Source: Pararhizobium gei (GTDB taxonomy: Bacteria > Pseudomonadota > Alphaproteobacteria > Rhizobiales > Rhizobiaceae). From it: a DNA stretch of 64,000 nucleotides. The translations under genes and the position numbers were made by a program. This document shows positions 23,891 through 54,074 of the stretch, piece by piece. The stretch is taken from contig NZ_CP119410.1 of assembly GCF_029223885.1 (NCBI RefSeq), forward strand, positions 207,880-271,879, given 5' to 3'. Under the pieces are notes generated by a model. It saw only the letters and a program-made list of their open reading frames with translations, was not told where the DNA came from and did not search any database. Numbering within the stretch: position 1 is the first letter of the stretch; each line of letters starts with the position of its first letter.

Positions 23891-24067
23891 ATGGCACAGG
23901 ATCTTGCACTCGCCCAAAGCCACGCATTTTCGCTTTCCCGCATCCTCATGGTTCCCGTCACCCTGTTCAAATCCGGGGACGAATTCGGCGTCCTTCCGTC
24001 CGACGAACTCGATGACGAAGACGATCTTGAGATCGTGCATGAATATTTCCCCCGCGGGTCTCATTGA
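23891..24067 (+). CDS. Small acidic hypothetical protein (58 aa)
   Basis: The ATG is 8 bases after a clear GGAGG (23878-23882). The product starts MAQDLALAQSHAFSLSRIL. A beta-like stretch, MVPVTLFKSGDEFGVLPSDE, is followed by a strongly acidic tail (LDDEDDLEIVHEYFPRGSH). No domain was recognised. The upstream leader contains a hairpin, AGCGGG/CCCGCT. The good ribosome-binding site and the GC-rich third positions support a real gene. It precedes the tra-box-like site and the Toprim gene. Confidence 0.6.
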   Translation: MAQDLALAQSHAFSLSRILMVPVTLFKSGDEFGVLPSDELDDEDDLEIVHEYFPRGSH

Positions 24068-24126
24068 GCCCCGCATGTCCCTGCCGCTGGCGACCTGTCG
24101 GCCGCAAGGGAAGCTCCGCCGCGGCC

Positions 24127-24142
24127 GGTGCAAATCTGCACC
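24127..24142 (+). promoter_or_regulatory. tra-box-like dyad upstream of the Toprim gene
   Basis: GGTGCAAATCTGCACC is a near-perfect dyad (14 of 16 positions symmetric). Its core GTGCAAATCTGCAC differs by one base from the core of the classic Ti-plasmid TraR box, GTGCAGATCTGCAC. The centre lies about 113 bases before the Toprim ATG at 24248. A TTGATT hexamer starts one base after the dyad and could act as a -35 element. TraR or the second LuxR regulator of this plasmid are the candidate binders. Confidence 0.65.
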
Positions 24143-24247
24143 TTGATTGCCGCGCCCTTGCCCCCTCCATTCTTCGCGGCGGAAACGAGGATGGCCGCAG
24201 GTATGCGGATTGGAAAAGAAGGGCGATCGACAAGTGATCGGAAAACA

Positions 24248-25285
24248 ATGAAGAGAGAAGAGTTGGAGGCGCTGCGCGCCAAGGTGAGTTGCGAAGCCGT
24301 GCTGGAGCAGGCCGGTTACGAAATCGATCTCAAAGAAAGCACGCGCCGCGCCGTCAAATACCGGTGTGGCGGCAACATCGTCATTGTCACGCATGACGGA
24401 CGCGGCTGGTTCGATCCGCTCAGCGACGAGAAAGGCGATGTATTCGGCCTTGCCATGTTCCTGGAAGGAATTCCATTCCCGTCCGCAATAAAAGCGGTCG
24501 CGTCAATTGTCGGGTATCAACTCTCCCGGCCGGAATGGAGGTCCTCGCGGTCTTCAGTGCCAGTAAAAGACATTTGCGAACGCTGGCGCAGCCGGCGCTC
24601 GCCTTCGCCCGGATCCAGTACCTGGCGCTATCTGTGCTGGGCGCGCGGGATCCCGACTGCCATCGCCCGGCAGGCGATCCGGGCGGGTGTCCTGCGGGAA
24701 GGACCCTTCGGCAGTATGTGGGCAGCCCATGTCGATGGCGCGGGTCGCGTTGTGGGTTGGGAGGAGCGCGGTCCCGCCTGGCGTGGCTTTGCCACCGGGG
24801 GCTCGAAGGTTCTCTTCCGTTTTGGACCATGCGATGCCTTTCGTCTCTGCGTTACCGAGGCCGCGATCGACGCGATGAGCCTCGCAGCGCTCGAGGGTTT
24901 GCGCGAGCAAACTCTCTATCTCAGCACGGGTGGTGGGTGGTCTCCGGCGACAGATGCGGCGCTTGCGGAACTTGCGGTGCGCCCGGGCCTGACACTGGTC
25001 GCGGCCACGGATGCCAATTCGCAAGGGGATGTCTATGCAGAACGATTGCGGGCGCTCGCCGAGTCATCCGGCTGCGACTGGCAGCGGTTACGTCCGCCGG
25101 CGGAGGATTGGAACGAGGTTCTAAAAAACAGGGAGAGGGAAAAATGGGAAAGGAAGAGCGAGAAGAACAACGAGGCCTGCCGCATGCGCGCCGGCCGCAT
25201 CAAGGGAGGCTCCGCCCGGCATGCGCCGGCCCTTGACCCGGCCGGACACGAGGCCGGCAGCGCGGAAGGGGTCATGAAGGACTGA
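24248..25285 (+). CDS. DUF3991 / Toprim domain protein
   Basis: This 345-residue cytoplasmic protein belongs to a plasmid-borne family with a primase-like N-terminus, a DUF3991 middle (TWRYLCWARGIPTAIARQAIRAGVL) and a Toprim domain (FRLCVTEAAIDAMSLAALEG, with the Glu; TLVAATDANSQGD, with the Asp-rich metal site). Toprim proteins nick, ligate or prime DNA. A role in processing or priming incoming plasmid DNA is likely but unproven. The C-terminal 50 residues are charged and low in complexity. The start (MKREELEALRAKV) lies about 110 bases after the tra-box-like dyad. DUF1419 and methylase-helicase genes follow in the same direction. Confidence 0.82.
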   Translation: MKREELEALRAKVSCEAVLEQAGYEIDLKESTRRAVKYRCGGNIVIVTHDGRGWFDPLSDEKGDVFGLAMFLEGIPFPSAIKAVASIVGYQLSRPEWRSSRSSVPVKDICERWRSRRSPSPGSSTWRYLCWARGIPTAIARQAIRAGVLREGPFGSMWAAHVDGAGRVVGWEERGPAWRGFATGGSKVLFRFGPCDAFRLCVTEAAIDAMSLAALEGLREQTLYLSTGGGWSPATDAALAELAVRPGLTLVAATDANSQGDVYAERLRALAESSGCDWQRLRPPAEDWNEVLKNREREKWERKSEKNNEACRMRAGRIKGGSARHAPALDPAGHEAGSAEGVMKD

Positions 25286-25350
25286 AGAGAATGGCAAGGT
25301 CGAAAAGACTTGTACTGCCTTCGGTCCAAACCCCCGAAAGGATCAAGCTG

Positions 25351-25956
25351 ATGACCTCGATAGCCCTTCCCCGCAAAATATTCCAGGGCGTGGCCAAGCG
25401 CGCCGACATGTTCCGGATGTTCGACAGGCACACGATGCGCCCCGACCGCTTTGATAGCGACCAATCCGCCGTCTATGCCGGCGAATGGTTTGAGATCGAT
25501 GAAACCTCCTACTCCTATATGCTGGACATTCTGCCGCCGCTCTGGATGCGCGGGCCGATCTTTGCGATGCGGGAATTCATGACCGGTTCGGTGACCTCGG
25601 TGTTTTATGCGATCCGGATCGATGAAGCCGTCCGTTACTTTCACACCTACTGCGACCTCTCGGACCCGGACTCTGTGGAGGCGATGCGGATCGCGATCAT
25701 TGACCGCGAAACCCGACCAGTCCGGGCGATGAGCCGCGAAGAACGGCTCGAGCATATCTGGAGCACGACCACCGACGACTATCGAGGCTATGCCAGCGCG
25801 CGTTGGCCCAAGCCCATGCAAGGCCATCGTACGGTGATGCTCTACGGTGGCAGTGAAGGCAGCTTTCTGAAGTTGCTCGACACCCTGTCTGACGGCGAGA
25901 TCGCGGCCAAGCTGCCGGAGCATCTACGCCACCTCCCCTCAGCCCTCGCCGCCTGA
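25351..25956 (+). CDS. DUF1419 family protein
   Basis: This predicted 201-residue protein matches the DUF1419 pattern seen in rhizobial and agrobacterial plasmids: YAGEWFEIDETSYSYMLDILPPLWMRGPIFAMREFMTGSVTSVFYAIRIDEAVRYFHTYCDL. There is no signal peptide or membrane segment. The start (MTSIALPRKIF) follows AAAGG; an upstream in-frame start would add 20 residues. It sits between the Toprim gene and the methylase-helicase and is probably cotranscribed with both. Its biochemical role is unknown. Confidence 0.75.
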   Translation: MTSIALPRKIFQGVAKRADMFRMFDRHTMRPDRFDSDQSAVYAGEWFEIDETSYSYMLDILPPLWMRGPIFAMREFMTGSVTSVFYAIRIDEAVRYFHTYCDLSDPDSVEAMRIAIIDRETRPVRAMSREERLEHIWSTTTDDYRGYASARWPKPMQGHRTVMLYGGSEGSFLKLLDTLSDGEIAAKLPEHLRHLPSALAA

Positions 25957-26045
25957 GCCAGATCATCATTCGCAAACTCCGCGCCGAAAGCGGTCTTCTC
26001 GGTGGCCGAGCGATGGCGCACGCCCTCATTTCAAGGAGCTTTCCC

Positions 26046-29000
26046 ATGAGCAACGATCCCTTTACATCAGACATGTTCGGCTCGAGCGTGCTTTCGTCCG
26101 GCCCCGGGCTTGGCGTGACAGCGTTCGGCGGGTTCTCGCCTGATGCCGCCAATGACGACGATCCGGATCCCCTGCCGCCAGCACCTGCATCCGCCCTCCC
26201 CGTCGCTGCCACGCCTGTCCGGCGCGCAAGGCTTCGGGCAAACTTCTATCTCGACGGTGACCGCAAGCTGGCCGCCTCCTGGAAGGATCGCGCCCGCGCC
26301 AATGTCGCGGCGATACTCGTCGCCGACGGCATTGCCAAGCAGGAGCGGCCGGCGACGGCAAAGGAACAGGCGCAGTTGATCCGCTTCACCGGCTTCGGCG
26401 CCGGCGAACTGGCCAACGGTATCTTCCGTCGGCCAGGCGAGGTCGATTTCCGCCAGGGCTGGGACGATATTGGTTCTTCGCTCGAGACCGCGGTTTCTGA
26501 GACCGACTACGCGTCGCTTGCCCGCTGCACCCAATATGCGCATTTCACGCCGGAGTTCATCATCAGGGCAATCTGGACTGGGGTCCAGAAAATGGGCTGG
26601 CGCGGCGGCCGGGTGCTGGAACCTGGCATCGGCACGGGGCTGTTCCCGGCCCTGATGCCGGAGCCATATCGCGACGTCGCCTATGTGACCGGGATTGAAC
26701 TCGATCCGGTCACCGCTCGCATCGCCCGCCTGCTTCAGCCGAAGGCGCGGATCATCAATGGCGATTTTGCCCGCACGGATCTGGCTCCGATCTACGATCT
26801 CGCCATCGGCAATCCACCCTTCTCCGATCGCACCGTCCGCTCGGACCGCGCTTACCGATCGCTTGGCCTTCGTTTGCACGACTATTTCATCGCCCGGTCG
26901 ATTGACCTGCTGAAGCCCGGTGCGCTCGCCGCCTTCGTTACCTCGCATGGCACCATGGACAAGGCCGATACCACGGCACGGGAGCATATCGCCAAATCCG
27001 CCGACCTGATCGCAGCGATCCGCCTGCCCGAGGGCAGCTTCCGTCGCGACGCCGGCACGGATGTCGCCGTCGACATCCTGTTCTTCCGCAAGCGGAAGCC
27101 CGGAGAGCCGGAGGGAAATCAGCTGTGGCTCGATGTCGATGAGATCAGGCCGGCCACCGACGAAGAAGGCGCCATCAGGGTCAATCGCTGGTTTGGTCGG
27201 CATCCGGACTTCGTGCTCGGCACACACGCCCTGACCTCCGGCCCGTTCGGCGAGACCTACACATGCCGGCCCCGCGAAGGAGAGAATCTCGAAGCCGCCA
27301 TTGCCACTGCCATCGAGCTTCTGCCGGCCGATCTCTATGACGGCGAACCGACACTGATCGATATTGATCTGGAGGAAGAACTCGGCGAGATCGTCGATCT
27401 ACAGCCGAAGGGCGGGACTGTTCGCGAGGGCAGCTTCTTCCTCGACCGGTCGAAGGGCCTGATGCAGATGCTCGACGGATCGGCCGTGCCGGTCACCGTC
27501 CGCAAGGGTCGCTCAGGCGATGGAATCCCGGAAAAACACGTTCGGATCATCAGCAAGCTGATCCCGATTCGCGATGCAGTGCGCGAGGTCCTGAAGGCGC
27601 AGGAAGCCGATCGGCCATGGCGCGATCTCCAAATCCGATTGCGCATTGCCTGGTCGAGTTTTGTGCGCGATTTCGGGCCGATCAACCACACAGTCGTGTC
27701 CGTTCAAGAGGATATCGAGACCGGCGAGGTCAAGGAAACGCATCGCCAACCGAACCTCGCACCGTTCCGCGACGATCCCGATTGCTGGCTGGTCGCCTCG
27801 ATCGAGGACTACGATCTGGAGACGGACACGGCGAAACCGGGGCCGATTTTTTCCGAACGCGTGATTGCTCCGCCGGCCGCACCGACGATTACCTCACCTG
27901 CCGATGCGCTCGCCGTCGTGCTGAATGAACGAGGCCACGTCGATATCGACCATGTCGCCGAGCTGCTGCACAGCGATCCTGCTGATGTGGTCGACGCGCT
28001 GGGCGAGGCCATCTTCCGTGATCCGGCCGATGGATCGTGGAAGATGGCAGACGGATATCTTTCAGGGGCCGTCCGCACGAAGCTCGCCGCCGCGCAGGCA
28101 GCGGCCGAGCTCGACCCCGCCTATGAGCGCAATGTCCGCGCCCTCCAGGAGGTCCAGCCGGCTGATCTCCGGCCATCCGACATCACAGCCCGCCTCGGCG
28201 CACCTTGGATCCCGGCCGCCGATGTCGTCGCCTTCGTCAGGCAAAAGATGGAGGCGGAAATTCGCATCTACCACATGCCGGAGCTTGGGTCCTGGACGGT
28301 GGAGGCACGGCAGCTTGGTTACAGCGCTGCTGGCACATCGGAATGGGGAACGAGCCGCCGCCACGCCGGCGACCTGCTGTCTGACGCGCTGAATAGCCGG
28401 GTCCCTCAGATCTTCGACGTCTTTAAGGATGCCGACGGTGAGCGCCGGGTCCTCAATGTAGTCGATACGGAAGCCGCGCGCGACAAGCTCCAGAGGATCA
28501 AGCAGGCATTCCAGGACTGGGTCTGGACCGATCCGGATCGAACCGACCGGCTGGCCCGCGGCTACAATGACCGTTTCAACAACATCGCGCCGCGGAAATT
28601 CGACGGCTCCCACCTGAAACTCCCTGGCGCCTCTGGCGCCTTTGTTTTGTATGGGCACCAGAAACGCGGCATATGGCGGATCATCGCCGATGGCTCGACT
28701 TATCTTGCCCACGCCGTCGGCGCCGGTAAGACGATGACCATGGCGGCGGCCATCATGGAACAGCGGCGCCTTGGACTGATCGCCAAGGCCATGCTGGTCG
28801 TCCCCGGCCATTGCCTGGCGCAGGCGGCGCGCGAGTTTTTAGGCCTCTATCCGAATGCCCGCATTCTCGTCGCCGACGAGACCAATTTCACCAAGGACAA
28901 GCGCGCCCGCTATCTGTCGCGTGCGGCGACTGCAACGTGGGATGCGATCATCATCACGCATTCGGCGTTCCGATTTATCGCCGTGCCGTCTGCCTTTGAG

Positions 29001-31136
29001 CAGGAGATGATCCACGGCGAGTTGCAACTCTATGAGGATCTGCTGACCAAGGTCGACAGTGAGGATCGCGTTTCGCGCAAGCGCCTTGAGCGGCTGAAGG
29101 AAGGTTTGCAGGAGCGGCTCGAAGGTCTCGCTACCCGCAAGGATGATCTTCTCACCATCTCGGAAATCGGCGTCGATCAGATCGTCGTCGACGAGGCGCA
29201 GGAATTCCGCAAGCTCTCCTTTGCCACTAACATGTCGACGCTGAAGGGCATCGATCCAAATGGCTCGCAGCGCGCTTGGGATCTCTATGTCAAATCCCGC
29301 TACATCGAGATGCGGAACCCAGGCCGCGCGCTCGTGCTTGCCTCCGGCACGCCGATCACCAATACGCTTGGCGAGATGTTCTCCATCCAGCGCCTGCTCG
29401 GTCATGCGGCACTCTCTGAGCGAGGGCTGCACGAGTTCGATGCCTGGGCTTCCTGCTTCGGCGATACAACTACGGAATTGGAGATCCAGCCATCCGGCAA
29501 ATATAAGCCTGTCAGCCGCTTTGCTTCCTTCGTCAACGTGCCCGAACTTATCGCGATGTTCCGCTCGTTTGCCGATGTGGTGTTGCCGGATGACCTGCGG
29601 CAATACGTGAAGGTGCCCAACATCTCGACCGGCCGGCGGCAGATCATGACTGCCAAGCCGACGGCTTTGTTCAAGACCTATCAGCAGGCCCTCGGCAGCA
29701 GGATCAAGGCGATCGAGCAGCGCGAGGGTCCCGCCAAGCCCGGTGACGACATCCTGCTGTCCGTCATTACTGATGGGCGCCATGCGGCGATCGACCTGCG
29801 CTTCGTCATGCCGGCGGCCGACAACGAGGAGAATAACAAGCTCAATCTGCTCGTCCGCAATGCCCATCGGATATGGAAGGAAAGCGGGGAAGCCATCTAT
29901 CGGCGTCCCGATGGCAAGGATTTTGAGCTACCGGGCGCTGCCCAGATGATCTTTTCCGATCTCGGCACGATCAACGTCGAGAAGAGCCGAGGCTTCTCGG
30001 CATATCGGTTCATTCGCGACGAGCTGATCCGGCTCGGCGTGCCCTCCTCGCAAATCGCCTTCATGCAGGACTACAAGAAGACCGAAGCCAAGCAGCGACT
30101 GTTCGGCGATGTCAGGGCCGGCAAGGTTCGTTTCCTGATAGGCTCGTCTGAAACCATGGGCACGGGCGTCAACGCCCAGCTTCGGCTGAAGGCGCTCCAT
30201 CACCTGGATGTCCCATGGCTGCCGTCGCAGATCGAGCAGCGAGAAGGCCGGATCGTCCGCCAGGGCAACCAGCACGAGGAGGTCGATATCTTCGCCTATG
30301 CGACGGAAGCCTCGTTGGATGCCAGCATGTGGCAGAATAATGAGCGCAAAGCCCGGTTCATTGCCGCGGCCCTATCCGGCGACACCTCGATCAGGCGGCT
30401 GGAAGATGTCGGTGAAGGGGCTGCCAACCAGTTCGCGATGGCCAAGGCCATTGCCTCCGGTGACGAGCGCCTGATGCAGAAGGCCGGGCTTGAGGCCGAC
30501 ATTGCCCGGCTTGAGCGGCTGCGCGCTGCCCACGAGGACGATCAATACGCCGTCCGCCGGCAGATGCGCGATGCAGAGCGCGAAATCGAGGTCTCAACCC
30601 GGCGGATTGACGAAATCGGCCAGGACATCGCGCGGCGACAGTCGATCACCGGCGATGCCTTCACCATGACGGTGCTCGGTAAAGAACATGCCGAGCGCAA
30701 GGAAGCGGGCCAGGCGCTGATGAAGGAAATCCTCACGCTTCTGCAGCTTCAGCATGAGGGCGAGGTGCATCTTGCCACGATCGGCGGCTTCGATCTCGTC
30801 TATGAGGGGGAGCGGTTCGGCAAGGGCGACGGCTATCGCTATGAGACCCTGGTCCAGCGCACCGGGGGAGAGTATGGGATCGACCTTGCAATCACGGTCA
30901 CGCCGCTCGGCGCCATCTCACGGCTGGAGCACGGACTCGACGGCTTCGAGCAGGAACAGCTTCAGTATCGCCGGCGGTTGGAAGAGGCCGAGCGCCGGCT
31001 GGCCTCATACCGTTCCCGAGACGGAGGAGCGTTCGCGTTCGCTGACTACCTGAAGGAGAAAAGGCGCGAACTACGTGACATCGAAACTCAGCTGGCGGGC
31101 AGCCTCGGCAATGAGACCAACGCGCTGGCTGCATAG
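26046..31136 (+). CDS. Giant N6-adenine methylase-helicase (DarB-like)
   Basis: This predicted 1,696-residue protein has an N-terminal N6-adenine methyltransferase: motif I LEPGIGTG near residue 190 and motif IV IGNPPFSD near 254. An SF2 helicase follows, with HAVGAGKTMTMA (Walker A, about 888), VVDEAQEF (motif II, about 1048), LASGTPITNTLGEM (motif III) and IEQREGRIVRQGN (motif VI, about 1400). The last 200 residues are charged and helical, probably coiled coil. The layout resembles phage P1 DarB and similar plasmid or ICE proteins that shield DNA from restriction. AAGGAG supports the chosen ATG. The role is inferred from architecture. Confidence 0.88.
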   Translation: MSNDPFTSDMFGSSVLSSGPGLGVTAFGGFSPDAANDDDPDPLPPAPASALPVAATPVRRARLRANFYLDGDRKLAASWKDRARANVAAILVADGIAKQERPATAKEQAQLIRFTGFGAGELANGIFRRPGEVDFRQGWDDIGSSLETAVSETDYASLARCTQYAHFTPEFIIRAIWTGVQKMGWRGGRVLEPGIGTGLFPALMPEPYRDVAYVTGIELDPVTARIARLLQPKARIINGDFARTDLAPIYDLAIGNPPFSDRTVRSDRAYRSLGLRLHDYFIARSIDLLKPGALAAFVTSHGTMDKADTTAREHIAKSADLIAAIRLPEGSFRRDAGTDVAVDILFFRKRKPGEPEGNQLWLDVDEIRPATDEEGAIRVNRWFGRHPDFVLGTHALTSGPFGETYTCRPREGENLEAAIATAIELLPADLYDGEPTLIDIDLEEELGEIVDLQPKGGTVREGSFFLDRSKGLMQMLDGSAVPVTVRKGRSGDGIPEKHVRIISKLIPIRDAVREVLKAQEADRPWRDLQIRLRIAWSSFVRDFGPINHTVVSVQEDIETGEVKETHRQPNLAPFRDDPDCWLVASIEDYDLETDTAKPGPIFSERVIAPPAAPTITSPADALAVVLNERGHVDIDHVAELLHSDPADVVDALGEAIFRDPADGSWKMADGYLSGAVRTKLAAAQAAAELDPAYERNVRALQEVQPADLRPSDITARLGAPWIPAADVVAFVRQKMEAEIRIYHMPELGSWTVEARQLGYSAAGTSEWGTSRRHAGDLLSDALNSRVPQIFDVFKDADGERRVLNVVDTEAARDKLQRIKQAFQDWVWTDPDRTDRLARGYNDRFNNIAPRKFDGSHLKLPGASGAFVLYGHQKRGIWRIIADGSTYLAHAVGAGKTMTMAAAIMEQRRLGLIAKAMLVVPGHCLAQAAREFLGLYPNARILVADETNFTKDKRARYLSRAATATWDAIIITHSAFRFIAVPSAFEQEMIHGELQLYEDLLTKVDSEDRVSRKRLERLKEGLQERLEGLATRKDDLLTISEIGVDQIVVDEAQEFRKLSFATNMSTLKGIDPNGSQRAWDLYVKSRYIEMRNPGRALVLASGTPITNTLGEMFSIQRLLGHAALSERGLHEFDAWASCFGDTTTELEIQPSGKYKPVSRFASFVNVPELIAMFRSFADVVLPDDLRQYVKVPNISTGRRQIMTAKPTALFKTYQQALGSRIKAIEQREGPAKPGDDILLSVITDGRHAAIDLRFVMPAADNEENNKLNLLVRNAHRIWKESGEAIYRRPDGKDFELPGAAQMIFSDLGTINVEKSRGFSAYRFIRDELIRLGVPSSQIAFMQDYKKTEAKQRLFGDVRAGKVRFLIGSSETMGTGVNAQLRLKALHHLDVPWLPSQIEQREGRIVRQGNQHEEVDIFAYATEASLDASMWQNNERKARFIAAALSGDTSIRRLEDVGEGAANQFAMAKAIASGDERLMQKAGLEADIARLERLRAAHEDDQYAVRRQMRDAEREIEVSTRRIDEIGQDIARRQSITGDAFTMTVLGKEHAERKEAGQALMKEILTLLQLQHEGEVHLATIGGFDLVYEGERFGKGDGYRYETLVQRTGGEYGIDLAITVTPLGAISRLEHGLDGFEQEQLQYRRRLEEAERRLASYRSRDGGAFAFADYLKEKRRELRDIETQLAGSLGNETNALAA

Positions 31137-31312
31137 CTGTATTGCACAATAAATGTTTTCCGATTGGCCAAAAATCAGGCATAAAGCCTACAGCTGATGC
31201 ATATGGCGGTCTCCTCCCAGTTCCGCCGCAGCAGCTGTTCCCCTCTGGAGGTCAAAGATCTCCACACTTTATGGGCCGCGGTTTACTCCGTCGGCCCTTT
31301 TTTCTTGCCGTC
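31137..31312. other. Short gap after the methylase-helicase gene
   Basis: About 175 bp between converging genes, with no supported coding sequence. It is AT-richer just after the stop (GCACAATAAATGTTTTCC). No clear terminator hairpin with a T-run is visible, apart from a short GCCAAAAATCAGGC-type dyad near 31168. Confidence 0.35.
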
Positions 31313-35150: not shown

Positions 35151-35533
35151 GAGGACCCGAGGCGAAAGGACCTGGCGATGTCCTACCCGGCTGCGATGTC
35201 ATCGTCATGGTGGGCTTGGCCATGTCTATCGCTTGCCTTGGGATTGATATCGGACTCGTGGCGGACTGCCCTTCTTGTTCGCTGCGGTCTGAACCGGCGG
35301 CCGGTCGTTTCAAGGCCGCTTGCGCGCCGCGGGGCGGCCGATCCAGCCTCTCTGCGCGAGGGCAGGCTCGCGGTCTGCTCAGGTCAAGACCTGCTGGCCC
35401 GCAACCCTGCCCTGCTGGCTCAGCCGGATCGGACCTGTGAAGCCACCCGTCCCTTGCCGGTTCTTGGTCGTCCGCATCGAAGGGCAGACCGGCACGGGCC
35501 GGTACCGCTTCGGAAGCCAAGGAAGGAACAGAC
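35151..35533. other. GC-rich, hairpin-rich leader with no gene
   Basis: About 380 bp without a supported coding sequence. It contains short perfect hairpins, for example CAGGTC-AA-GACCTG near 35383-35396 and GGCCGC/GCGGCC pairs near 35320-35340. AAGGAAGGAA precedes the next ATG. Long structured leaders of this kind precede several genes in this region. Confidence 0.4.
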
Positions 35534-36121
35534 ATGGCCAAGTCCTCTACCCCAAATCGCTCCAACGCACGGGTCTCGCAATCTCGCCGCGCTACCACCC
35601 TCGAAATGGTCCGCCTCTCCTGCCCCGACGCCACCCAGGCGTCCAAGATCGCGACAAGCTTCGGCACGGCAGTCGTCGACAGCGATGGCATACGCAGCCT
35701 TCACGAGCGGCTGATCGTCGAGACCGCCGAAAGCCTCTCCGAAGGCCTCGGCGAGAAGGCGATGCAGATCCACCTCCAGCGCATCGTCGGGGCGTTTGTC
35801 GGATCCGCGCATGGCGCCGGGCAATTCTACTCCCGCGCCGTCACAGAGGCGCGCGACGCAACGGCCAAGGCGTCCAACGATGCCCGCGACGAGGATCTCG
35901 ATGGTCCGGTCGGCTATGACAGCGCCGCCCAGCGCAAGCGGGAGTTCGCGGCCGACATGGGTGTCCAGTCGCACGCGCTGCGCATGGCAGCCGAGGGCGC
36001 AGTCGCGGCTTACGAACAGGTCATCGGCGAGACCTGGAAGCCCTTCGACCGGCCGGTCGAAAATCCGGGCGCATCGCTCGACCGCAAAGCAGCAGAAGCT
36101 CAGTTAGCCGCTTTCGGATAA
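35534..36121 (+). CDS. Conserved-looking plasmid hypothetical protein (195 aa)
   Basis: This soluble protein starts MAKSSTPNRSNARVSQSRR with a basic tail, followed by a helical body (SLHERLIVETAESLSEGLGEKAMQIHLQRIVGAFVGSAHGAGQFYSRAVTEARDATAKASNDARDED). A strong ribosome-binding site (AAGGAAGGAA) supports the start. No enzymatic motif or membrane segment is visible. A good terminator follows, so it is a single-gene unit. Function unknown. Confidence 0.65.
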   Translation: MAKSSTPNRSNARVSQSRRATTLEMVRLSCPDATQASKIATSFGTAVVDSDGIRSLHERLIVETAESLSEGLGEKAMQIHLQRIVGAFVGSAHGAGQFYSRAVTEARDATAKASNDARDEDLDGPVGYDSAAQRKREFAADMGVQSHALRMAAEGAVAAYEQVIGETWKPFDRPVENPGASLDRKAAEAQLAAFG

Positions 36122-36212: not shown

Positions 36213-36377
36213 GGGAGACGCGCCTATCGCGGCCCGTCCCGCTCGGCGGTCCTGCAGGAGCCGGGCACCCATGCAAGGGCTTCGCCGTCCTCCACGCTGT
36301 TGCGGCCGTTCGGTGCATGGCCGCGCCATCGGCCCCTGACTTCGGACCTCCGTGACGGACCGCGATAGGCGCGGTCC
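36213..36377. repeat. Long-range inverted repeat in the ardC leader
   Basis: CGCGCCTATCGCGG at 36219-36232 is repeated exactly in inverted form at 36360-36373, and the match extends several bases with a mismatch (CCCGTC against TCCGTC). About 127 bases separate the arms. The right arm ends 24 bases before the ardC ATG. In double-stranded DNA this could form a large cruciform. In single-stranded transfer DNA it would pair into a stem next to the gene start. A GAGAAAAGGAA element follows the right arm. Confidence 0.75.
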
Positions 36378-36397: not shown

Positions 36398-37321
36398 ATG
36401 ACGAAGAAATCGGAATCGGACCGTGCGGATATCTACACGCAGATCACCGATCGGATCGTTGAAGATCTCGAACAGGGCGTTCGCCCCTGGATGAAACCAT
36501 GGAGAGCCGCCAACACGCATAGTCGCATTACACGGCCGGTGCGCCACAATGGCCTCCCCTATTCCGGCATGAACGTGCTGCTCCTGTGGTCGGAGCAGGT
36601 ATCGCGCGGCTTCTCCTCCTCGATGTGGATGACCTTCAAACAGGCCCTCGAGCTGGGCGGGGCCGTGCGAAAGGGCGAAACCGGCTCGACAGTCGTTTTC
36701 GCCAGCCGGTTCACAAAGTCGGTGGCCGACGGAAACGGCAATGATGTCGATCGAGAGATACCGTTCCTAAAGGCATATTCTGTGTTCAATATAGAGCAGA
36801 TCGAGGGTTTGCCCGACACCTATCATGCTCCGCCGGCCAGGGTCCGGGATCCTGTCGAGCGAATAGAAAGCGCCGATCTCTTTTTCCGCAACACCGGCGC
36901 GGTCATCCGGCACGGCGGCAACCAGGCCTATTATTCGCCGATCATGGATTACATCCAGATGCCGCCCTTCGAGGCGTTCTGTGATGCTGCCGGATACGCG
37001 GCCGTCCTCAGCCATGAGGCGACCCACTGGACGGCGGCGGAACATCGCGTCGGACGTGACCTGTCGCGCTATGCGAAGGACCGGACGGATCGCGCGCGCG
37101 AAGAACTTATTGCCGAGCTCGGCAGTTGCTTCCTCTGCGCCGATCTCGGCATCGCACCGGAGCTCGAGCCGCGGCCGGATCATGCATCCTACCTGCAGTC
37201 GTGGCTATCGGTGCTGACCAACGACAAGCGGGCGATCTTCCAGGCGGCGGCTCATGCGCAGCGCGCTGTAAGTTTCCTGCATTCCTTGCAGCCGCAAGCG
37301 GAAGTCAAGGCTGCAGCCTGA
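36398..37321 (+). CDS. ardC: ArdC-like antirestriction protein with zincin-type metallopeptidase domain
   Basis: The 307 residues comprise an N-terminal ArdC domain (DIYTQITDRIVEDLEQGVRPWMKPW, then LPYSGMNVLLLW and WMTFKQALELGGAVRKGETGSTVVFA) and a C-terminal zincin domain with the HExxH motif in VLSHEATHW, followed by EELIAELGSCFL with the likely third metal ligand. ArdC proteins bind single-stranded DNA and protect incoming plasmid DNA in the recipient. It lies behind a long inverted repeat and is transcribed toward oriT, as expected for a leading-region gene. No signal peptide is present. Confidence 0.87.
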   Translation: MTKKSESDRADIYTQITDRIVEDLEQGVRPWMKPWRAANTHSRITRPVRHNGLPYSGMNVLLLWSEQVSRGFSSSMWMTFKQALELGGAVRKGETGSTVVFASRFTKSVADGNGNDVDREIPFLKAYSVFNIEQIEGLPDTYHAPPARVRDPVERIESADLFFRNTGAVIRHGGNQAYYSPIMDYIQMPPFEAFCDAAGYAAVLSHEATHWTAAEHRVGRDLSRYAKDRTDRAREELIAELGSCFLCADLGIAPELEPRPDHASYLQSWLSVLTNDKRAIFQAAAHAQRAVSFLHSLQPQAEVKAAA

Positions 37322-37622: not shown

Positions 37623-37826
37623 ATGGCGCAAGATGCCATTCGTGCCCGGGCGAGAGCGGCGGAACACCATTGCCATATCCCTTCACGTCAGAGTTTCCGG
37701 CAACCCATCTGCGGGCTCGATGAGGCATGTCTGACCGGAGACCGGCTGCGCCTCGATCGTTTTCCCGCAACGGCTAGCCGCAGATTTCTTACCCCGGAAG
37801 GCTGCGCCTTTCTCCTCGCCCACTAA
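37623..37826 (+). CDS. Possible small hypothetical protein (67 aa)
   Basis: An open frame starts MAQDAIRARARAAEHHCHIP and ends EGCAFLLAH. Codon third positions are fairly GC-rich, and GCGGGGG lies just before the ATG, but there is no textbook ribosome-binding site and no known domain. An upstream in-frame GTG at 37581 would add 14 residues. The coding status is uncertain; the stretch could instead be leader sequence of the DUF736 gene. Confidence 0.3.
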   Translation: MAQDAIRARARAAEHHCHIPSRQSFRQPICGLDEACLTGDRLRLDRFPATASRRFLTPEGCAFLLAH

Positions 37827-37954
37827 CAAATCTGCGACTTGCCGCCCTCCATTTCATTCCGGCCCTATTGGGTGCGGTCCGATCGTCACCGGTCTTTTGA
37901 CAGCTATCGAGGTCGCGATGGGCGCGGCCCGAACACGAGAAAAGGAATACGACA

Positions 37955-38263
37955 ATGGCAACCATCGGCACATTCACCTCCACCGAAAACGGCTTCACCG
38001 GCTCCATCCGCACGCTCGCCCTCAGCGTCAAGGCCCGCATCGCCCGGGTCGAGAACCCCTCCGACAAGGGCCCGCAGTTCCGCGTCTACGCCGGCAGCGT
38101 CGAGCTAGGTGCCGCCTGGCAGAAAACCTCCGAACAGGGCCGCGACTACCTCTCGGTCAAGCTCGACGATCCGAGCTTCCCAGCTCCGATCTACGCAACG
38201 CTCGCCGAAGTTGAAGGCGAGGATGGCCTCCAGCTCATCTGGTCCCGCCCGAACCGGGACTGA
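37955..38263 (+). CDS. DUF736 family protein
   Basis: This predicted 102-residue protein matches the DUF736 family of rhizobial plasmids and symbiosis islands throughout: [78 protein letters not shown]. The fold is probably beta-rich. Its role is unknown. The leader just before the ATG (CGCGATGGGCGCGGCCC ... GAGAAAAGGAA) is clearly related to that of the ardC gene, suggesting shared control. A rho-independent terminator follows. Confidence 0.88.
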
Positions 38264-38750: not shown

Positions 38751-39042
38751 GGGCGGTAGACTACACAGCCAGGCGTGGTCTCTGTGTAAGGTGTCGAAAG
38801 GCGGAGACATTGCACGGTGTCCTTGTCGAGCGAGGCCATCGACATCAGGGATGTTGCAGTCCGGTCGTCGGGCAGCAACTCATCGCCATCAGAATTTTCC
38901 CCGCCGCTTCGCGTCTTCTCGCGCGCCAAAATTCAGATGTCGATAAGTCCTCCGCTTCGCTGCGGCCGTACCGATGCAACCCTCCTTGTCCCGGCCTGCG
39001 GCAGATCCCTGCGATGTCCGCAATCGACAAGGAGAAACCACC
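38751..39042. other. Gap between two small genes
   Basis: About 290 bp without a supported gene. Dyads include CCGCTTCGCTGCGG near 38951. The ribosome-binding site AAGGAG at about 39030 belongs to the next gene. No tra box was found. Confidence 0.35.
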
Positions 39043-39216
39043 ATGCAACGTCTCGCGCAATTCCTCGCAGCCACCGGCCGTCAACTCCGCAACCTTGGCA
39101 AAATCATCTGTCACTTTTTCCGGAAGGGCAAACTCGGCCTGAAGCTCGCGATCAAGATCCCGTTCTTCGTCGAGATCGAGATCTCCTTTGAAACAGATTG
39201 GAGCAGGCGCCGATAA
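39043..39216 (+). CDS. Small basic, partly hydrophobic hypothetical protein (57 aa)
   Basis: The product starts MQRLAQFLAATGRQLRNLGK. A segment, LGLKLAIKIPFFVEIEISF, is hydrophobic enough for membrane association, and the protein ends in WSRRR. AAGGAG precedes the ATG by about seven bases. It converges with the nuclease gene (stop to stop 36 bases). No domain was recognised. Function unknown. Confidence 0.6.
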   Translation: MQRLAQFLAATGRQLRNLGKIICHFFRKGKLGLKLAIKIPFFVEIEISFETDWSRRR

Positions 39217-43051: not shown

Positions 43052-43069
43052 AGGTACAAATTTGTACCT
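43052..43069. promoter_or_regulatory. tra box between traC and traA
   Basis: AGGTACAAATTTGTACCT is a perfect 18-bp palindrome, the size and form of TraR-family binding sites. Its core TACAAATTTGTA recurs exactly in the trb promoter at 63690-63701. It is centred about 78 bases from the traC start and 172 from traA, so it can serve both divergent operons as in Ti plasmids. The core differs from the classic GTGCAGATCTGCAC. Confidence 0.85.
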
Positions 43070-43102: not shown

Positions 43103-43155
43103 CCGCTCGACAAGAGCGGATCCAAGGGCGCAATTATACGTCGCTGACGCGACGT
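43103..43155 (-). other. oriT: oriT, RSF1010/Ti (MOBQ) type with predicted nic site
   Basis: The minus strand carries a perfect 7-bp stem, ACGTCGC-GTCA-GCGACGT, then ATAATTGCGCCC and TTGG. This is the RSF1010-like order of relaxase-binding hairpin and conserved GCGCCC nick motif. The predicted nick is on the minus strand between 43126 and 43125. A second dyad, CCGCTC/GAGCGG, lies at 43103-43119. If so, the transferred strand runs from here toward lower coordinates, through traCDG into the 40-to-23 kb region. The cognate relaxase TraA starts about 80 bases away. Confidence 0.85.
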
Positions 43156-48936: not shown

Positions 48937-49557
48937 TCAGGGATCAGGTTCGACAATTGCGACATTGAGGTCGTTTAGTATATCAGCCAGACCCGGCGCG
49001 CGGATCAGCTTCGTCGTGCGGACCGCCTTCAGTTTTCCAATAGCTCGATCGAACAGTGCAAGGTTGGTGTGGCCGTTGAGCCGAGACGGGTAGATGATGC
49101 CGTCCACCTGGCTGTCGTGTTCATTGAAGGCGACCGCCCACTTCCGTGCGAGGGATTGCTTTGAGCCCTTCGCGACATCCGTCGGCACACCCATCTTGAT
49201 CGGCCCGTCGTCTCGAAGATCGACCATCATCAGCGGATTGATGACCTCGATCTCTGCGAAATTGCGGTCGTACAATTCGGATTCAGCTATCGGCAGGTCG
49301 CCGAGGACCCCATCGCGTTGATCGCGCAAGACGGCTTCGAGAAAGCACACCTTCACCGTATCGCCCAAATAGAGCACCCCGAACCGGTTAGCGAATTTGC
49401 GCCGGCGTGGATCGCTGAAACGGCTCGGCGTTTTACCGAAGCCCAGTGGATCAGGGTAGGTGCCCAGATAGATGCGACCGAACCGAAGTCCGGCTGCGAC
49501 CGTATGCAGGTGAAGGCTTGCATTTGCAAAGCCGGGAGGCGGCAGAGTACGTGCCAT
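48937..49557 (-). CDS. RES-domain toxin
   Basis: This 206-residue RES-family protein has GRIYLGTYPDPLGFGKTPSRFSDPR (the Arg-x-x-Ser-like first motif), FGVLYLGDTVKVCFLEAVL (catalytic Glu) and DGIIYPSRLNGHTNLALFD (the conserved Ser/Arg site). RES toxins break down or transfer from NAD. The antitoxin gene lies upstream on the same strand, its stop next to the toxin ATG. The pair would stabilise the plasmid or act as a stress or phage-response module. Its place between traH and traR is unusual for a Ti-type core. Confidence 0.88.
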   Translation of the reverse strand: MARTLPPPGFANASLHLHTVAAGLRFGRIYLGTYPDPLGFGKTPSRFSDPRRRKFANRFGVLYLGDTVKVCFLEAVLRDQRDGVLGDLPIAESELYDRNFAEIEVINPLMMVDLRDDGPIKMGVPTDVAKGSKQSLARKWAVAFNEHDSQVDGIIYPSRLNGHTNLALFDRAIGKLKAVRTTKLIRAPGLADILNDLNVAIVEPDP

Positions 49558-50313
49558 TCAGCGGAAATCTCGACCAATGCTCTCGACAACCTCGAGCGCT
49601 TGCTCGGTCCGTCCCCGCTCCAATGCCTCGCGACCTGTCAGTCCGTCCAGCTCTCCGTGGGGCTGGACCAGGAACCGGTAAACCGCCCAGGCTCCGCCCA
49701 GTCGCTCCTGGAGCGTTGCAAGCGCTGCAAACGGCTTGCCATCGGCATCGATCTGCCAATCCGGGAAGCGAAAGCCGCGTTTCGCGCCATCCAGCCCCAA
49801 TACCAGTCCGGTCTGGCGCTTTGAATTCACCGTTACCCTTGTCGTGCCAAGCAGCTTGGCGAATTCGTCGGCATTCAGCATGTCAGTGCCGCTGAGGACC
49901 TCAGCAGCCTTTATGCGTCCCCGCGCCCGTGCGGCCAACAACGCCTGCTCCAACTCCGGATCCAGTGCATCGTTCTCCTCTACGACAGGCACCGTTGTCA
50001 TTTCCACCGCCTCAACGGGAGTGACAACCATCTCACCTTCGGAATCGACATCGACACGGAAGCTGACCGGGTGGCCAGCAGAACGGCTTTTTGCGATCGC
50101 TTGACCATATTCCTGGAGGAGCGCCTTGACGCGATTGGGATTGCCGGTCAGGGCTTTTGATGCATTGTCCGGGATCTTGATCTTGAAGGCGGCTCTCCCC
50201 TTCGCCAGCGGGGCGGCGCCTGTGGTCAGGAAAAAAGCCATGGATTCAGCGCCCGGTTTTTCGCGCCCGCTTGCACCGTCACGTATGCTGGTTTTGGACT
50301 TCAGAGATGCCAT
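49558..50313 (-). CDS. Xre/MbcA/ParS-type antitoxin (DUF2384-like)
   Basis: This 251-residue protein has a disordered first half, a helix-turn-helix-like middle (LNADEFAKLLGTTRVTVNSKRQTG) and a C-terminal toxin-binding part (FPDWQIDADGKPFAALATLQERLGGAWAVYRFLVQPHGELDGLTGREALERG), as in Xre antitoxins of RES toxins. It is longer than most (150-170 residues); the additional N-terminal 90 residues have no recognised domain. GGAGGG before the ATG gives strong translation. It probably represses its own operon through the repeats just upstream. Confidence 0.82.
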   Translation of the reverse strand: MASLKSKTSIRDGASGREKPGAESMAFFLTTGAAPLAKGRAAFKIKIPDNASKALTGNPNRVKALLQEYGQAIAKSRSAGHPVSFRVDVDSEGEMVVTPVEAVEMTTVPVVEENDALDPELEQALLAARARGRIKAAEVLSGTDMLNADEFAKLLGTTRVTVNSKRQTGLVLGLDGAKRGFRFPDWQIDADGKPFAALATLQERLGGAWAVYRFLVQPHGELDGLTGREALERGRTEQALEVVESIGRDFR

Positions 50314-51002: not shown

Positions 51003-51707
51003 ATGACAAACTGGGTCGAGAAACTGCTGGATATCACTGTGATCGGAAACGATCAGTCCATGGTCAAGGGCGCACTGGCCAATCTTGCTGATCGGTTCGA
51101 TTTTGTGGGCTATGCCTTCGTCAACATTCGTCCGGGGCAGACCTATGCGGTCTCCAACTACGATATCGACTGGCAGAAAATCTATGACACGCTGGACTAC
51201 CGGTTCATCGATCCGGTCATGCGGCAGGCCCAACTGATAAGGCGCGCTTTCGCCTGGTCCGGCGAAGCCGAAAAGAGCTCGCTGTCAAAAGAGCAGAAAA
51301 ACTTCTTTTCGAAAGCCGCTGATTTCAACATTCGCTCGGGCGTTTCCATCCCGGTCGCCACCGCCAACGGTGCCATGTCCATGCTGACCTTTGCATCGGC
51401 GAAGCCTTCTCTTGCCAGTGATATGGAGATTGATGCCATTATGGCTGCATCAGCGGTCGCTCAACTTCATGCCCGTCTTGAGCACATGCGTGTCACGCCC
51501 TCCATCGAGGAAAAGATCGTCCTGACGCCGAAGCAGGTGAACTACATTCGCTGGCTGTCGCTTGGCAAAACCGTCGAGGTGATCGCTGAGCTGGAGCAGG
51601 CAAAGTATGCTGGCGTCCGCTCTGCGATTGACGATGTCAGAACGCGCTACAATCTGGCCAATCATGCGCAGGTGGTGGCTTTGGCTATCCGACGCGGCCT
51701 GATTTAG
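51003..51707 (+). CDS. traR: TraR, LuxR-family quorum-sensing activator of conjugation
   Basis: The 234 residues equal the length of Ti TraR. The acyl-homoserine-lactone domain has NYDIDWQKIYDTLDYRFIDPV and RRAFAW (the Trp, Tyr and Asp contacts). The DNA-binding part is LTPKQVNYIRWLSLGKTVEVIAELEQAKYAGVRSAIDDVRTRYNLANHAQVVALAIRRGLI. It binds tra boxes and turns on tra and trb operons. The ATG after GGAGAG was chosen; an upstream GTG would add eight residues. It converges with traM, its antiactivator. Confidence 0.92.
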   Translation: MTNWVEKLLDITVIGNDQSMVKGALANLADRFDFVGYAFVNIRPGQTYAVSNYDIDWQKIYDTLDYRFIDPVMRQAQLIRRAFAWSGEAEKSSLSKEQKNFFSKAADFNIRSGVSIPVATANGAMSMLTFASAKPSLASDMEIDAIMAASAVAQLHARLEHMRVTPSIEEKIVLTPKQVNYIRWLSLGKTVEVIAELEQAKYAGVRSAIDDVRTRYNLANHAQVVALAIRRGLI

Positions 51708-51729
51708 GCTGATGTGGCGTTGTCAGGCC
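51696..51729. terminator. Possible terminator stem spanning the traR and traM stops
   Basis: GGCCTGA (51696-51702) and TCAGGCC (51723-51729) are exact complements with a 20-base loop covering both stop codons. The loop is long, so the call is weak. It repeats the theme of stems at convergent gene ends in this window. Confidence 0.35.
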
Positions 51730-52022
51730 TTGGGCGTATAGCCTAGAATGTGCAGGAGGGTGGTCAGCACCGACATTTGCGCGTGCATCCTGATGGTTGC
51801 TTCGAGATAGGCAATATGGGTATCGCCAACAAGCTCCTTACCGGCTTTAACGTCAGCCGGCAGTTCATTGAACAGATTTTCTGCCCGCTCCAATAGATCC
51901 CGATGTTCGCGGATTGCATTGATCGTGAGACGTTCGATGAGCGGTGACGGAAGCCCATGCAGGAGGCCTACCAGCGGCTTCAGATCGACTGCCTCGCCAT
52001 TCAATCGGTCGTCGGCGTCCAT
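51723..52022 (-). CDS. traM: TraM, TraR antiactivator
   Basis: This 99-residue helical protein (Ti TraM is 102) binds TraR and blocks DNA binding at low signal levels. VDLKPLVGLLHGLPSPLIERLTINAIREHRDLLERAENLFNELPA and the C-terminus MSVLTTLLHILGYTPKA match TraM. The ATG was chosen to give MDADDRLNGEAV, dropping an upstream extension without family features. A hairpin-rich region starts about 65 bases upstream of its start. Confidence 0.88.
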   Translation of the reverse strand: MDADDRLNGEAVDLKPLVGLLHGLPSPLIERLTINAIREHRDLLERAENLFNELPADVKAGKELVGDTHIAYLEATIRMHAQMSVLTTLLHILGYTPKA

Positions 52023-52086
52023 GTTCAACTCCCAAAACAGGAATGCGCGGTGCGCCCCCGCAAAGTTCCTGACCCCTGGCGATCGG

Positions 52087-52251
52087 GGAGTTAGTAACCG
52101 AGCATGCGCCGGCCCATAGACCTTTAGTTCCGAGGAACCTGGACATACGTCCACGGCTCCCCGACCATAGGTCGAGGAATTCGGCGCCCTAACGGCGGAC
52201 GCCAAACCGGCATGCGTCGGGTTACTAAGCCCGGAGGCAGCGCGTACTGCC
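52087..52251. other. Cluster of consecutive hairpins enclosed by a TTAGTAACC inverted repeat
   Basis: An outer stem, TTAGTAACC (52091-52099) with GGTTACTAA (52220-52228), is strengthened inside by GCCGG/CCGGC. It encloses three perfect hairpins: GTTCC-GA-GGAAC (52127-52138), TGGAC-ATAC-GTCCA (52140-52153) and CGACC-ATA-GGTCG (52162-52174). GGCAG/CTGCC follows at 52236-52251. No coding sequence explains it. It lies upstream of traM (leftward) and of the luxR gene (rightward). Confidence 0.6.
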
Positions 52252-52574
52252 TCACCAGCGCTTATAGCGACCTAACCTCATCCGCACCACCGCAGATTTG
52301 TTGGCGTCCGAGGTCGGCTCGCGGCCAGCGATTGAAGAAGGAGACTGCGTCGTTGTCGCTTTGGTGTCCAAAATGAAACGGGTGATCGTCCAATAGTCGA
52401 ACGAAATTAACCTCGGCATTGCAATGCCTCTCTTCGCCGGAAAGTTGCGTTTGAACCACGAAAGCAATCAGGCTACAGCACGATCCCTTGAAGTTCTGCA
52501 TCGCCGCCGAACTCGTTTGGCTGATCATTCGATCTCTGCGGCGGATTGTCAGGTCGCAGTGCTGGAAGCGGATA
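52252..52574. promoter_or_regulatory. Upstream region of the second luxR gene
   Basis: About 320 bp with no supported coding sequence. No tra-box palindrome is visible. GGAAG precedes the TTG start used for the luxR gene. An alternative TTG at 52488 would take up about 90 bases of this stretch. Confidence 0.35.
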
Positions 52575-53294
52575 TTGACACGATCTCTCGCCGATTTTTC
52601 CGACGTCAAAGAGCGCCTTGCAAAGACGGGCTCGGTGACCGAAGCGCTCCATTTCATACAGTCGGTCTATCGCGTCGATTTCATAACCTACCATCTCGCT
52701 TCGACGGTGATCGGTGATTTTGACGCCCCGTTCGTGCGCACGACCTACCCGGATGCGTGGGTATCCACCTATCTGTTGAAGGGCTATGTCACCATCGATC
52801 CTGTCGCGCGGGAGGGCTTTTTGCGCCAGCTGCCATTCGATTGGCGAGAACTCGAAGTCGCGCCCGAGATGCTGATGTTTCTGGAAGACGCAATACGCCA
52901 TGGGATCGGCCGTTTTGGTTTTTCCATCCCGATATCGGATAAAGCCGGCCGTCGCGCCATCCTCTCTTTGAATTCGAACGTCTCCGCCGAAGACTGGGAG
53001 GATCTGGTCAGTGCTCATCGGAGGGAATGGGTCGATCTCGCGTATCTCGTCCACCAGATGGCAGTGTTCGAGCTACATGGAGCGAGCGATCCGATCCCGG
53101 TCTTGAGTCCGCGGGAACGTGAGTGCCTCTACTGGAGCGCGCTCGGCAAGGATTACAACGATATCGCGCTTATTCTCGGCCTTTCCCATCACACGACCCG
53201 CAGCTACATCAAGTCGGCGAGGACAAAACTCGGTTGCGCTACGATCTCGGCGGCGGCCACTCTTGCCCTGAAGCTGCGCGTGATCACGATATGA
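52575..53294 (+). CDS. Second LuxR-family regulator (CinR/solo-like)
   Basis: This protein has about 239 residues. The signal-binding domain includes VYRVDFITYHLAST, YPDAWVSTYLLKGYVTIDPVAREGF and FDWREL. The C-terminal LuxR helix-turn-helix is VLSPRERECLYWSALGKDYNDIALILGLSHHTTRSYIKSARTKLGCATISAAATLALKL. It differs clearly from TraR and is closer to CinR-type proteins; a CinR-like regulator beside traI is known in Rhizobium plasmid p42a. The start is uncertain: TTG 52575 with GGAAG, or TTG 52488. It is transcribed toward luxI, which begins 117 bases after its stop. Confidence 0.85.
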   Translation: MTRSLADFSDVKERLAKTGSVTEALHFIQSVYRVDFITYHLASTVIGDFDAPFVRTTYPDAWVSTYLLKGYVTIDPVAREGFLRQLPFDWRELEVAPEMLMFLEDAIRHGIGRFGFSIPISDKAGRRAILSLNSNVSAEDWEDLVSAHRREWVDLAYLVHQMAVFELHGASDPIPVLSPRERECLYWSALGKDYNDIALILGLSHHTTRSYIKSARTKLGCATISAAATLALKLRVITI

Positions 53295-53322
53295 GCCGAT
53301 CGCACGCCAGCCTTTGACAATA

Positions 53323-53350
53323 CCCGCATATGGGTCTGACCATATGCGGG
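53323..53350. promoter_or_regulatory. Inverted repeat between luxR and luxI
   Basis: CCCGCATATGG and CCATATGCGGG are perfect 11-bp arms around a six-base spacer. TTGACA (a -35-like hexamer) lies just before at 53314-53319, so the dyad sits where a promoter core would be. It could be an operator for luxI or an intergenic hairpin without a T-run. Confidence 0.55.
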
Positions 53351-53411
53351 AATATCTGGCTCCTCCGCCAGGCGGCATCTTCCAGCCAGTATCAACAGCT
53401 GGAGACAAACC

Positions 53412-54074
53412 TTGTTCATTCTGGTTCAAGCGCATCAGTACACCCGTTATCAGGCTCTCATGGATCAGGCATTTCGCCTGCGCAAACGTGTGTTTCACGA
53501 TCAACTCGGTTGGGCCGTGACAATCGACGGTGATTGCGAGCGCGACGAGTATGATGCTCTGCGGCCAGCTTACCTGATGTGGTGCAATGATCGCGCGGAT
53601 CGCCTTTATGGAACGCTGCGGCTGATGCCAACCACCGGCCCAACGCTTCTCTACGACGTCTTCCATAACACGTTTGCGGGTGCAAACCTGATTGCACCTG
53701 GCATCTATGAGGGAACGAGAATGTGCCTCGATGAGGAAACACTTTCCGAGGATTTCCCGAGGCTGGAAACGGGTAAGGCTTTCGGCATGCTGCTGCTGGC
53801 GTTGTGCGAATGCGGATTGTCGCACGGTATCGAGACGCTGGTCTCAAACTACGAGCCGCACTTGGCGCGCGTCTATCGTCGGGCGGGGCTCGCCGTTGAA
53901 GAGGTTGGCCGCGCAGAAGGCTATGGTCGCTCTCCGGTTTGCTGCGGTGTTTTCGAAGTTTCAGAGGAGGTTCGCACGCGCATGCAGCAGGCGCTTGGCG
54001 TCGCGGCTCCCCTCTATGCAGGATATCGGCCGCGCAAAATTGCGGACAGCGAGACCGTGCGCATATCGGCCTGA
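53412..54074 (+). CDS. traI: LuxI-family acyl-homoserine-lactone synthase (TraI-like)
   Basis: This 220-residue enzyme makes an acyl-homoserine lactone from S-adenosylmethionine and acyl-ACP. The family's invariant residues are in LRKRVFHDQLGW (Arg, Phe, Trp), DCERDEYDALRP (two Asp), RLYGTLRLMP (Arg) and IYEGTRMCLDEE (Glu, Arg). The start is TTG after GGAG. In Ti plasmids traI is the first gene of the trb operon; here it lies beyond the far end, convergent with trbI and directly after a luxR gene. The acyl chain length is not predictable. Confidence 0.9.
   Translation: MFILVQAHQYTRYQALMDQAFRLRKRVFHDQLGWAVTIDGDCERDEYDALRPAYLMWCNDRADRLYGTLRLMPTTGPTLLYDVFHNTFAGANLIAPGIYEGTRMCLDEETLSEDFPRLETGKAFGMLLLALCECGLSHGIETLVSNYEPHLARVYRRAGLAVEEVGRAEGYGRSPVCCGVFEVSEEVRTRMQQALGVAAPLYAGYRPRKIADSETVRISA

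Follow-up and report, generated by a model that had tools for sequence, protein, structure and literature searches.

What is the function of the inverted repeat that stands in front of the Toprim operon of this Pararhizobium gei plasmid? The stretch analysed (the window) is 64,000 bases long and forms the final 64 kb of the 271,879-base contig NZ_CP119410.1, in a genome of 3 contigs, and the repeat in question is the dyad GGTGCAAATCTGCACC at 24127-24142 on the + strand. The original prediction took it for a TraR box that would raise the genes behind it in the donor. Our favoured answer, to which we give not quite an even chance, is that the dyad would be a LuxR-family operator, most likely of the plasmid's own TraR, at the tip of a hairpin promoter heading a leading-region operon. 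A LuxR-family operator inside such a promoter is the simplest account of both the hairpin and the coupling between its tip and the tra boxes of the same plasmid.

By itself the dyad is weak evidence, because the window holds 30 comparable 16-mers with perfect arms of 6+6 bases around a 4-base spacer. It is an inverted repeat of 16 bp with 7 of 8 pairs matched (the tra boxes of Ti plasmids have 18 bp). As first stated, its 12-base core lies one base away from the classic TraR core TGCAGATCTGCA, and no other site in the window comes within one mismatch of that core. It does precede the gene run, but 105 bases, not about 113, separate it from the Toprim ATG at 24248. The dyad draws its weight from conservation across orthologous loci. 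The 30 comparable dyads would suit a product of chance; chance was rejected on this conservation, since 14 of 80 orthologs, down to a Toprim identity of 58%, have the dyad in the same place, and we regard it as a negligible prospect.

A conserved element spanning about 24104-24179, with the layout GCAAGGG..CGCGGC, tip, TTG..CCCTTGC, has the dyad as its tip. Its parts are as follows:

24104-24110, + strand: outer arm, left, GCAAGGG, able to pair with 24155-24161
24120-24125, + strand: inner arm, left, CGCGGC, able to pair with 24149-24154 and covarying across orthologs
24127-24142, + strand: dyad GGTGCAAATCTGCACC, the hairpin tip and candidate TraR/LuxR operator
24143-24148, + strand: -35-like TTGATT directly 3' of the dyad
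24149-24154, + strand: inner arm, right, GCCGCG
24155-24161, + strand: outer arm, right, CCCTTGC
24166-24179, + strand: weak -10-like TCCATT, then conserved CTTCGCGG (base frequencies of 99 unique elements)

The search for the same dyad before orthologous Toprim/DUF3991 genes, proposed with the original prediction, was run on the best 80 of 353 orthologous loci. The motif GGTGCANNNNTGCACC starts 119-134 bases ahead of the Toprim start in 14 of the 80, at Toprim identities from 92% down to 58%; the outcome that would have refuted the original prediction, a dyad missing from every orthologous locus, thus did not arise. Six of these loci carry a 16-mer identical to the window's. Among the 66 loci that lack GGTGCANNNNTGCACC, 61 retain both outer arms around another tip. 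The tip is interchangeable within conserved arms, and in general GCAAGGGARGCTNCGC is followed by CGCGGC or a variant of it, then by the tip, then by GCCGCGCCCTTGC and after that by a conserved TTTGCTCTTCGCGGC. In the window's family the arm pattern is present in 60 of 394 genomes, the window's own genome included, and the reversed-pattern control in 0. Within the window, the right-arm pattern has no further copy and the left arm has partial matches only; a search of known RNA families at the element gave none up to E 1.

Does the tip go with the tra boxes of the plasmid that carries it? We fetched 49 of 68 places in other genomes, chosen for contig size and tip variety, which with 7 named or own stretches made 56; the 31 with TraA and a near-complete Toprim match were used for coupling. 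The plasmid pTiC58, its twin CFBP5503 and AR125 stood outside the permutation tests, and pSmeSM11b, whose stretch is without traA, was unused. Scored against its own traC-traA region, the tip reached a mean of 10.9 over the 31 plasmids compared with 8.3 when shuffled (0 of 20,000 permutations), a test in which the tip of one plasmid, G247, was wrongly cut. Collapsing the plasmids to 8 tra-box types, with a fixed 52-nucleotide cut, left 9.93 for own pairs and 8.36 for shuffled ones (34 of 20,000 permutations). The 52 bases upstream and downstream of the element, used as flanking controls, gave no signal (2,542 and 10,816 of 20,000).

Four of the eight types carry the coupling, with own scores of 14.0 (the window's type, the highest), 13.2, 12.9 and 10.8. 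Type B and three singleton types do not carry it; in the fetched 40 kb of the singletons, TraR had no match in two and a weak match in the third. Type B tips and the boxes that precede traI do agree when read in the same direction (GCTGCAACTTTTGTCAGT and GCTGACACTTTTGGCAGT; CACTTGCTGCAACTTTTGGCAGT and CACTCGCTAACACTTTTGGCAGT). A small table of traI- and trbB-upstream regions, in which the stretch of one plasmid (G139) was empty, ranks the own type first for the type B plasmids, G094 and G116; the own type is not best for the window or pRi2659, and is tied for pAt2. That the tip sequence would follow the plasmid's own tra boxes across plasmid types is thereby partly supported.

The arms around the tip show paired changes. 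Covariation was assessed on 130 loci, 123 of them with both arms (7 dropped); 49 had been chosen by arm pattern and possess outer arms by construction. Taking the first six inner-arm positions of 70 distinct arm pairs, 358 of 420 cells hold a Watson-Crick pair; 2,000 shuffles gave 322 on average and 338 at most. Relatedness inflates such counts, as shuffling leaves kinship in place. Fully paired variants comprise CGCGGC/GCCGCG, CGCGGG/CCCGCG, CGCAGC/GCTGCG and CGTGGC/GCCACG. Folded as DNA, 99 elements have mean z scores of -2.0 and -2.3 for the two strands, compared with -0.5 and -0.35 for 67 control segments. Wobble pairs gave no strand asymmetry at the Toprim element, where G-T in the mRNA-sense strand is not clearly kept over A-C. 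From its position and from the tip being a presumed operator, we infer that the folding molecule is the T-strand rather than an mRNA.

The element also has some features of an activated promoter. A TTG lies exactly 12 nucleotides before the right arm in 79 of the 99 unique elements and 13 nucleotides before it in 7 more, and in most copies it directly follows the tip, resembling class II TraR promoters. The hexamer 17 bases beyond the TTG is TTTGCT in 48 of the 99, a poor fit to a -10 box.

How well does an operator for the plasmid's own TraR fit all of this? Beside the kinship behind the arm counts, a series of observations weighs against it. A control in which the tip was compared with the later portion of the traC-traA gap was not clean (627 of 20,000). 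The four types other than those listed above score below the shuffled mean (type B 7.6, three singletons 7.0 each). For the window itself, the tip halves read GGTGCA and those of its tra box GGTACA, 5 of 30 other plasmids have traC-traA regions that outscore the window's own for its tip, and the tip scores lower with its own trbB-upstream region than with three others. The window's own 131-nucleotide fold is unexceptional (z -0.46 and -1.11), the -10-like hexamer never agrees with the consensus at more than 3 of 6 positions in the 98 elements listed out of 99, and a sigma-70 consensus scan of the element found no promoter. The pTiC58 plasmid (GV3101 record) retains a single half site, GGTGCAGATTGTCATC, compared with TGTGCAGATCTGCACG at traC-traA; on pTi_AR125 the tip reads CTGCAGATCAGCAG and the traC-traA box TGTGCAGATCTGCACA. 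The TraR regulon table of the review PMC3907764, with 24 tra, trb, rep, traM and yci genes, lists no gene of the Toprim operon; the text there counts 31 TraR-raised genes for the nopaline type and 25 for the octopine type, some unnamed in the table. In the main text of a paper on the pAtP4 cinI regulon (PMC4992315), the words helicase, toprim and methyl do not occur, the operon's presence on pAtP4 being unchecked. Finally, pAt2, whose element has lost the left arm, combines a tip identical to the window's with unrelated, type B tra boxes. This mismatch argued against TraR until the wider comparison of types restored the TraR reading. The pAt2 stretch at about 1440-1620 looks like part of a mosaic plasmid, with a window-type Toprim element and type B tra boxes. 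What stands of the predicted TraR box is a candidate LuxR/TraR-type operator in a promoter-like position that follows tra boxes over types, but in only four of the eight and with the contrary cases just given.

Which regulators and genes surround the element? The features that bear on this are:

23891-24067, + strand: conserved open reading frame of 58 amino acids just upstream of the element (tblastn relatives in six compared plasmid stretches, 64-100% identity)
24248-25285, + strand: DUF3991/Toprim_2 gene (Pfam)
25291-25956, + strand: DUF1419 gene (Pfam)
26013-31136, + strand: methylase-helicase gene, 1707 amino acids (Pfam; partial PADLOC and NCBIfam matches)
36398-37321, + strand: ArdC-type antirestriction gene (Pfam)
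43053-43068, + strand: tra box GGTACAAATTTGTACC between traC and traA
43122-43136, - strand: nic-like core TAATTGCGCCCTTGG, read from sequence
51003-51707, + strand: TraR (Pfam Autoind_bind; NCBIfam TraR equivalog, 281.8 bits, cut-off 250)
51723-52205, - strand: TraM antiactivator (Pfam)
52488-53294, + strand: second LuxR-type regulator
53412-54074, + strand: LuxI-type synthase, the only LuxI match in the genome
63688-63703, - strand: tra-box-like TCTACAAATTTGTACC upstream of trbB

The three genes behind the element do lie on one strand and end in a giant methylase-helicase, as predicted and as Pfam matches bear out (the Eco57I methylase match falls just below the cut-off); they may form an operon read as a single transcript. 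An ar15 small RNA (Rfam, E 4.5e-21) lies directly after the methylase-helicase gene at 31192-31303 (+); ar15 also occurs just past this gene in two related loci (L105 and L018), and in pAt2 it is not found at gathering score. The window also carries traG, traD, traC, traA and trb genes; GGTACAAATTTGTACC in the traC-traA gap and TCTACAAATTTGTACC upstream of trbB are its apparent tra boxes. TraR, TraM and LuxI are all encoded on the plasmid, in keeping with such an operator. The second LuxR and the sole LuxI adjoin TraR and TraM at 52488-54074. Since LuxI sits there, trbB has no traI in front of it, unlike in pAt2 and others. A RES-domain gene and a 251-amino-acid neighbour without a Pfam match, at 48937-50313 (-), are possibly a toxin-antitoxin pair.

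We take the core at 43122-43136 to be nic because it resembles nic sites of the RSF1010 type, which would make the minus strand the T-strand. The + genes at 24-40 kb, which point at oriT, would then belong to the leading region and be templated by the T-strand. The donor-side focus of the original prediction is to this extent too narrow: expression in the recipient is at least as relevant for such a gene run, and the conserved hairpin had been missed.

Could the tip be structural only? The dyad would then be the terminal stem of a hairpin on the recipient T-strand, a promoter or priming site that no LuxR protein binds, and its tra-box likeness would be shared ancestry or coincidence. The covarying arms agree with this, and so does the length of the tips' own stems, which exceed those of shuffles (5.08 and 4.19, in 69 of 99); some tips without a tra-box look are, by eye, near-perfect stems (G268 C3 and G169, for example). 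The four types uncoupled at traC-traA and pAt2, where tip and tra box part company, point the same way. However, a purely structural tip gives no reason to expect the type-level coupling or the close, same-orientation matches to traI-upstream boxes, and the TTG spacing suits an activator promoter. We consider this explanation doubtful. A further alternative keeps the operator and changes the protein: the dyad may answer to the second LuxR (52488-53294) and the LuxI beside it. Tip and traC-traA box differ at the same base of both halves, and this regulator and the genome's only LuxI match lie next to TraR. In other plasmid types the tip tracks the traA or traI boxes, which may speak against this reading. 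TraR is the likeliest binder, and the second LuxR a real, if improbable, alternative.

The folded molecule could also be an mRNA leader or attenuator transcribed from a promoter further upstream, which the conserved 58-amino-acid reading frame on the same strand would fit. Under such a reading, the missing preference for G-T over A-C, the absence of a following T-run and of any terminator call at the arms, and a tra-box-like tip that would have no role in RNA are all hard to place, and it appears highly improbable.

How might an operator for TraR at the hairpin tip work? In the double-stranded DNA of the donor, TraR with its signal would bind the dyad and, in class II fashion, recruit polymerase to the adjoining -35-like TTG, and the Toprim operon would rise together with tra and trb. 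In the recipient, the arms would fold the incoming single (minus) strand into a duplex, and the folded element may act ahead of second-strand synthesis. The element may then be a dual-mode promoter, a TraR promoter in the donor duplex and a self-refolded duplex promoter on the recipient single strand, such that products of leading-region genes could be pre-made in the donor and re-made at once in the recipient; it would be one of a family of covarying hairpins before several leading-region genes of this family's plasmids. We put this extended proposal forward as rather unlikely.

Four further inverted repeats lie in the leading region:

35359-35413, + strand: inverted repeat before the gene at 35534 (same-place arms in several relatives, some paired changes)
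36219-36373, + strand: inverted repeat with 23-nucleotide arms before ArdC (mixed signs of conservation)
37771-37844, + strand: covarying hairpin before the DUF736 gene
37955-38263: DUF736 gene, named after annotated orthologs
38878-38948, + strand: covarying hairpin before a 57-amino-acid open reading frame at 39043

The hairpins before DUF736 and the 57-amino-acid frame have arms as long as 21 bases and keep much the same spacing from their genes; their outer arms diverge yet remain complementary. A core could be located in 28 of 43 and in 12 of 12 matches, respectively (26 and 12 unique). Outer-arm pairs number 231 of 390 and 127 of 180, where 5,000 shuffles reach 195 and 121 at most, with a bias toward pairing because the core was placed by best pairing among pattern matches. 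The motif TCYTCGC is common to all three elements: it occurs in 76 of 90 unique Toprim-element flanks and in the loops of 15 of 26 DUF736 and 10 of 12 57-amino-acid-frame hairpins, where shuffled means are below 1, as for the Toprim flanks. By a simple hairpin score, the signal for ArdC is mixed and ParB shows none that is clear. Wobble pairs gave no signal at the hairpin of the 57-amino-acid frame (1,704 of 3,000 shuffles reach the observed value). An A-C minus G-T asymmetry at DUF736 was set aside: 42 of 3,000 shuffles after six poorly paired rows were dropped (20 of 26 kept) became 339 of 3,000 with all rows.

If the TraR reading holds, quorum sensing would govern the transfer machinery together with genes thought to aid survival of the arriving DNA, to which the operon may lend a protective role, perhaps including the protective methylation of the original prediction. 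Rhizobial and Agrobacterium plasmids would gain candidate elements for single-stranded DNA whose role is similar to that of Frpo, and the coupling of tip and tra box would let TraR specificity be read from sequence.

How does the element compare with known systems? Our literature searches, which covered few subscription papers and no supplements, turned up nothing that we recognised as a description of these hairpins or of a tie between TraR and the leading region. The dual TraR systems of pAt15955 and pTi15955, as far as the parts of PMC7856919 consulted go, share with our case tra boxes that are inverted repeats with a distinct consensus on related plasmids; they concern tra promoters only. 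Frpo-type promoters and anti-defence genes occur in leading regions according to the main text of PMC11541004, which nowhere contains Agrobacterium or rhizob. By the descriptions there, and in Masai and Arai 1997 as cited there, rather than by Frpo sequences, the likeness to Frpo and ssi lies in the leading region, the hairpin upstream of T-strand-templated genes and the nearby ArdC antirestriction-type gene. Our hairpin differs in having a LuxR-type dyad and no -35/-10 consensus match in its stem; its predicted single-strand fold shows paired changes and low folding z over the 99 elements, and the wobble-pair test favoured no strand or molecule. At class II TraR promoters the box lies some 45 bases ahead of the transcription start and overlaps part of the -35 element (PMC3907764). 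Compared with those of Ti plasmids (traI-trb and traCDG/traAFBH), the present case, known from sequence alone, would have a different target, the leading-region Toprim/methylase-helicase operon, and a box embedded in a hairpin. It shares with them a dyad adjoining a -35-like element, a regulator of the same family on the plasmid, and, in four of the eight types, a tip that follows the tra box.

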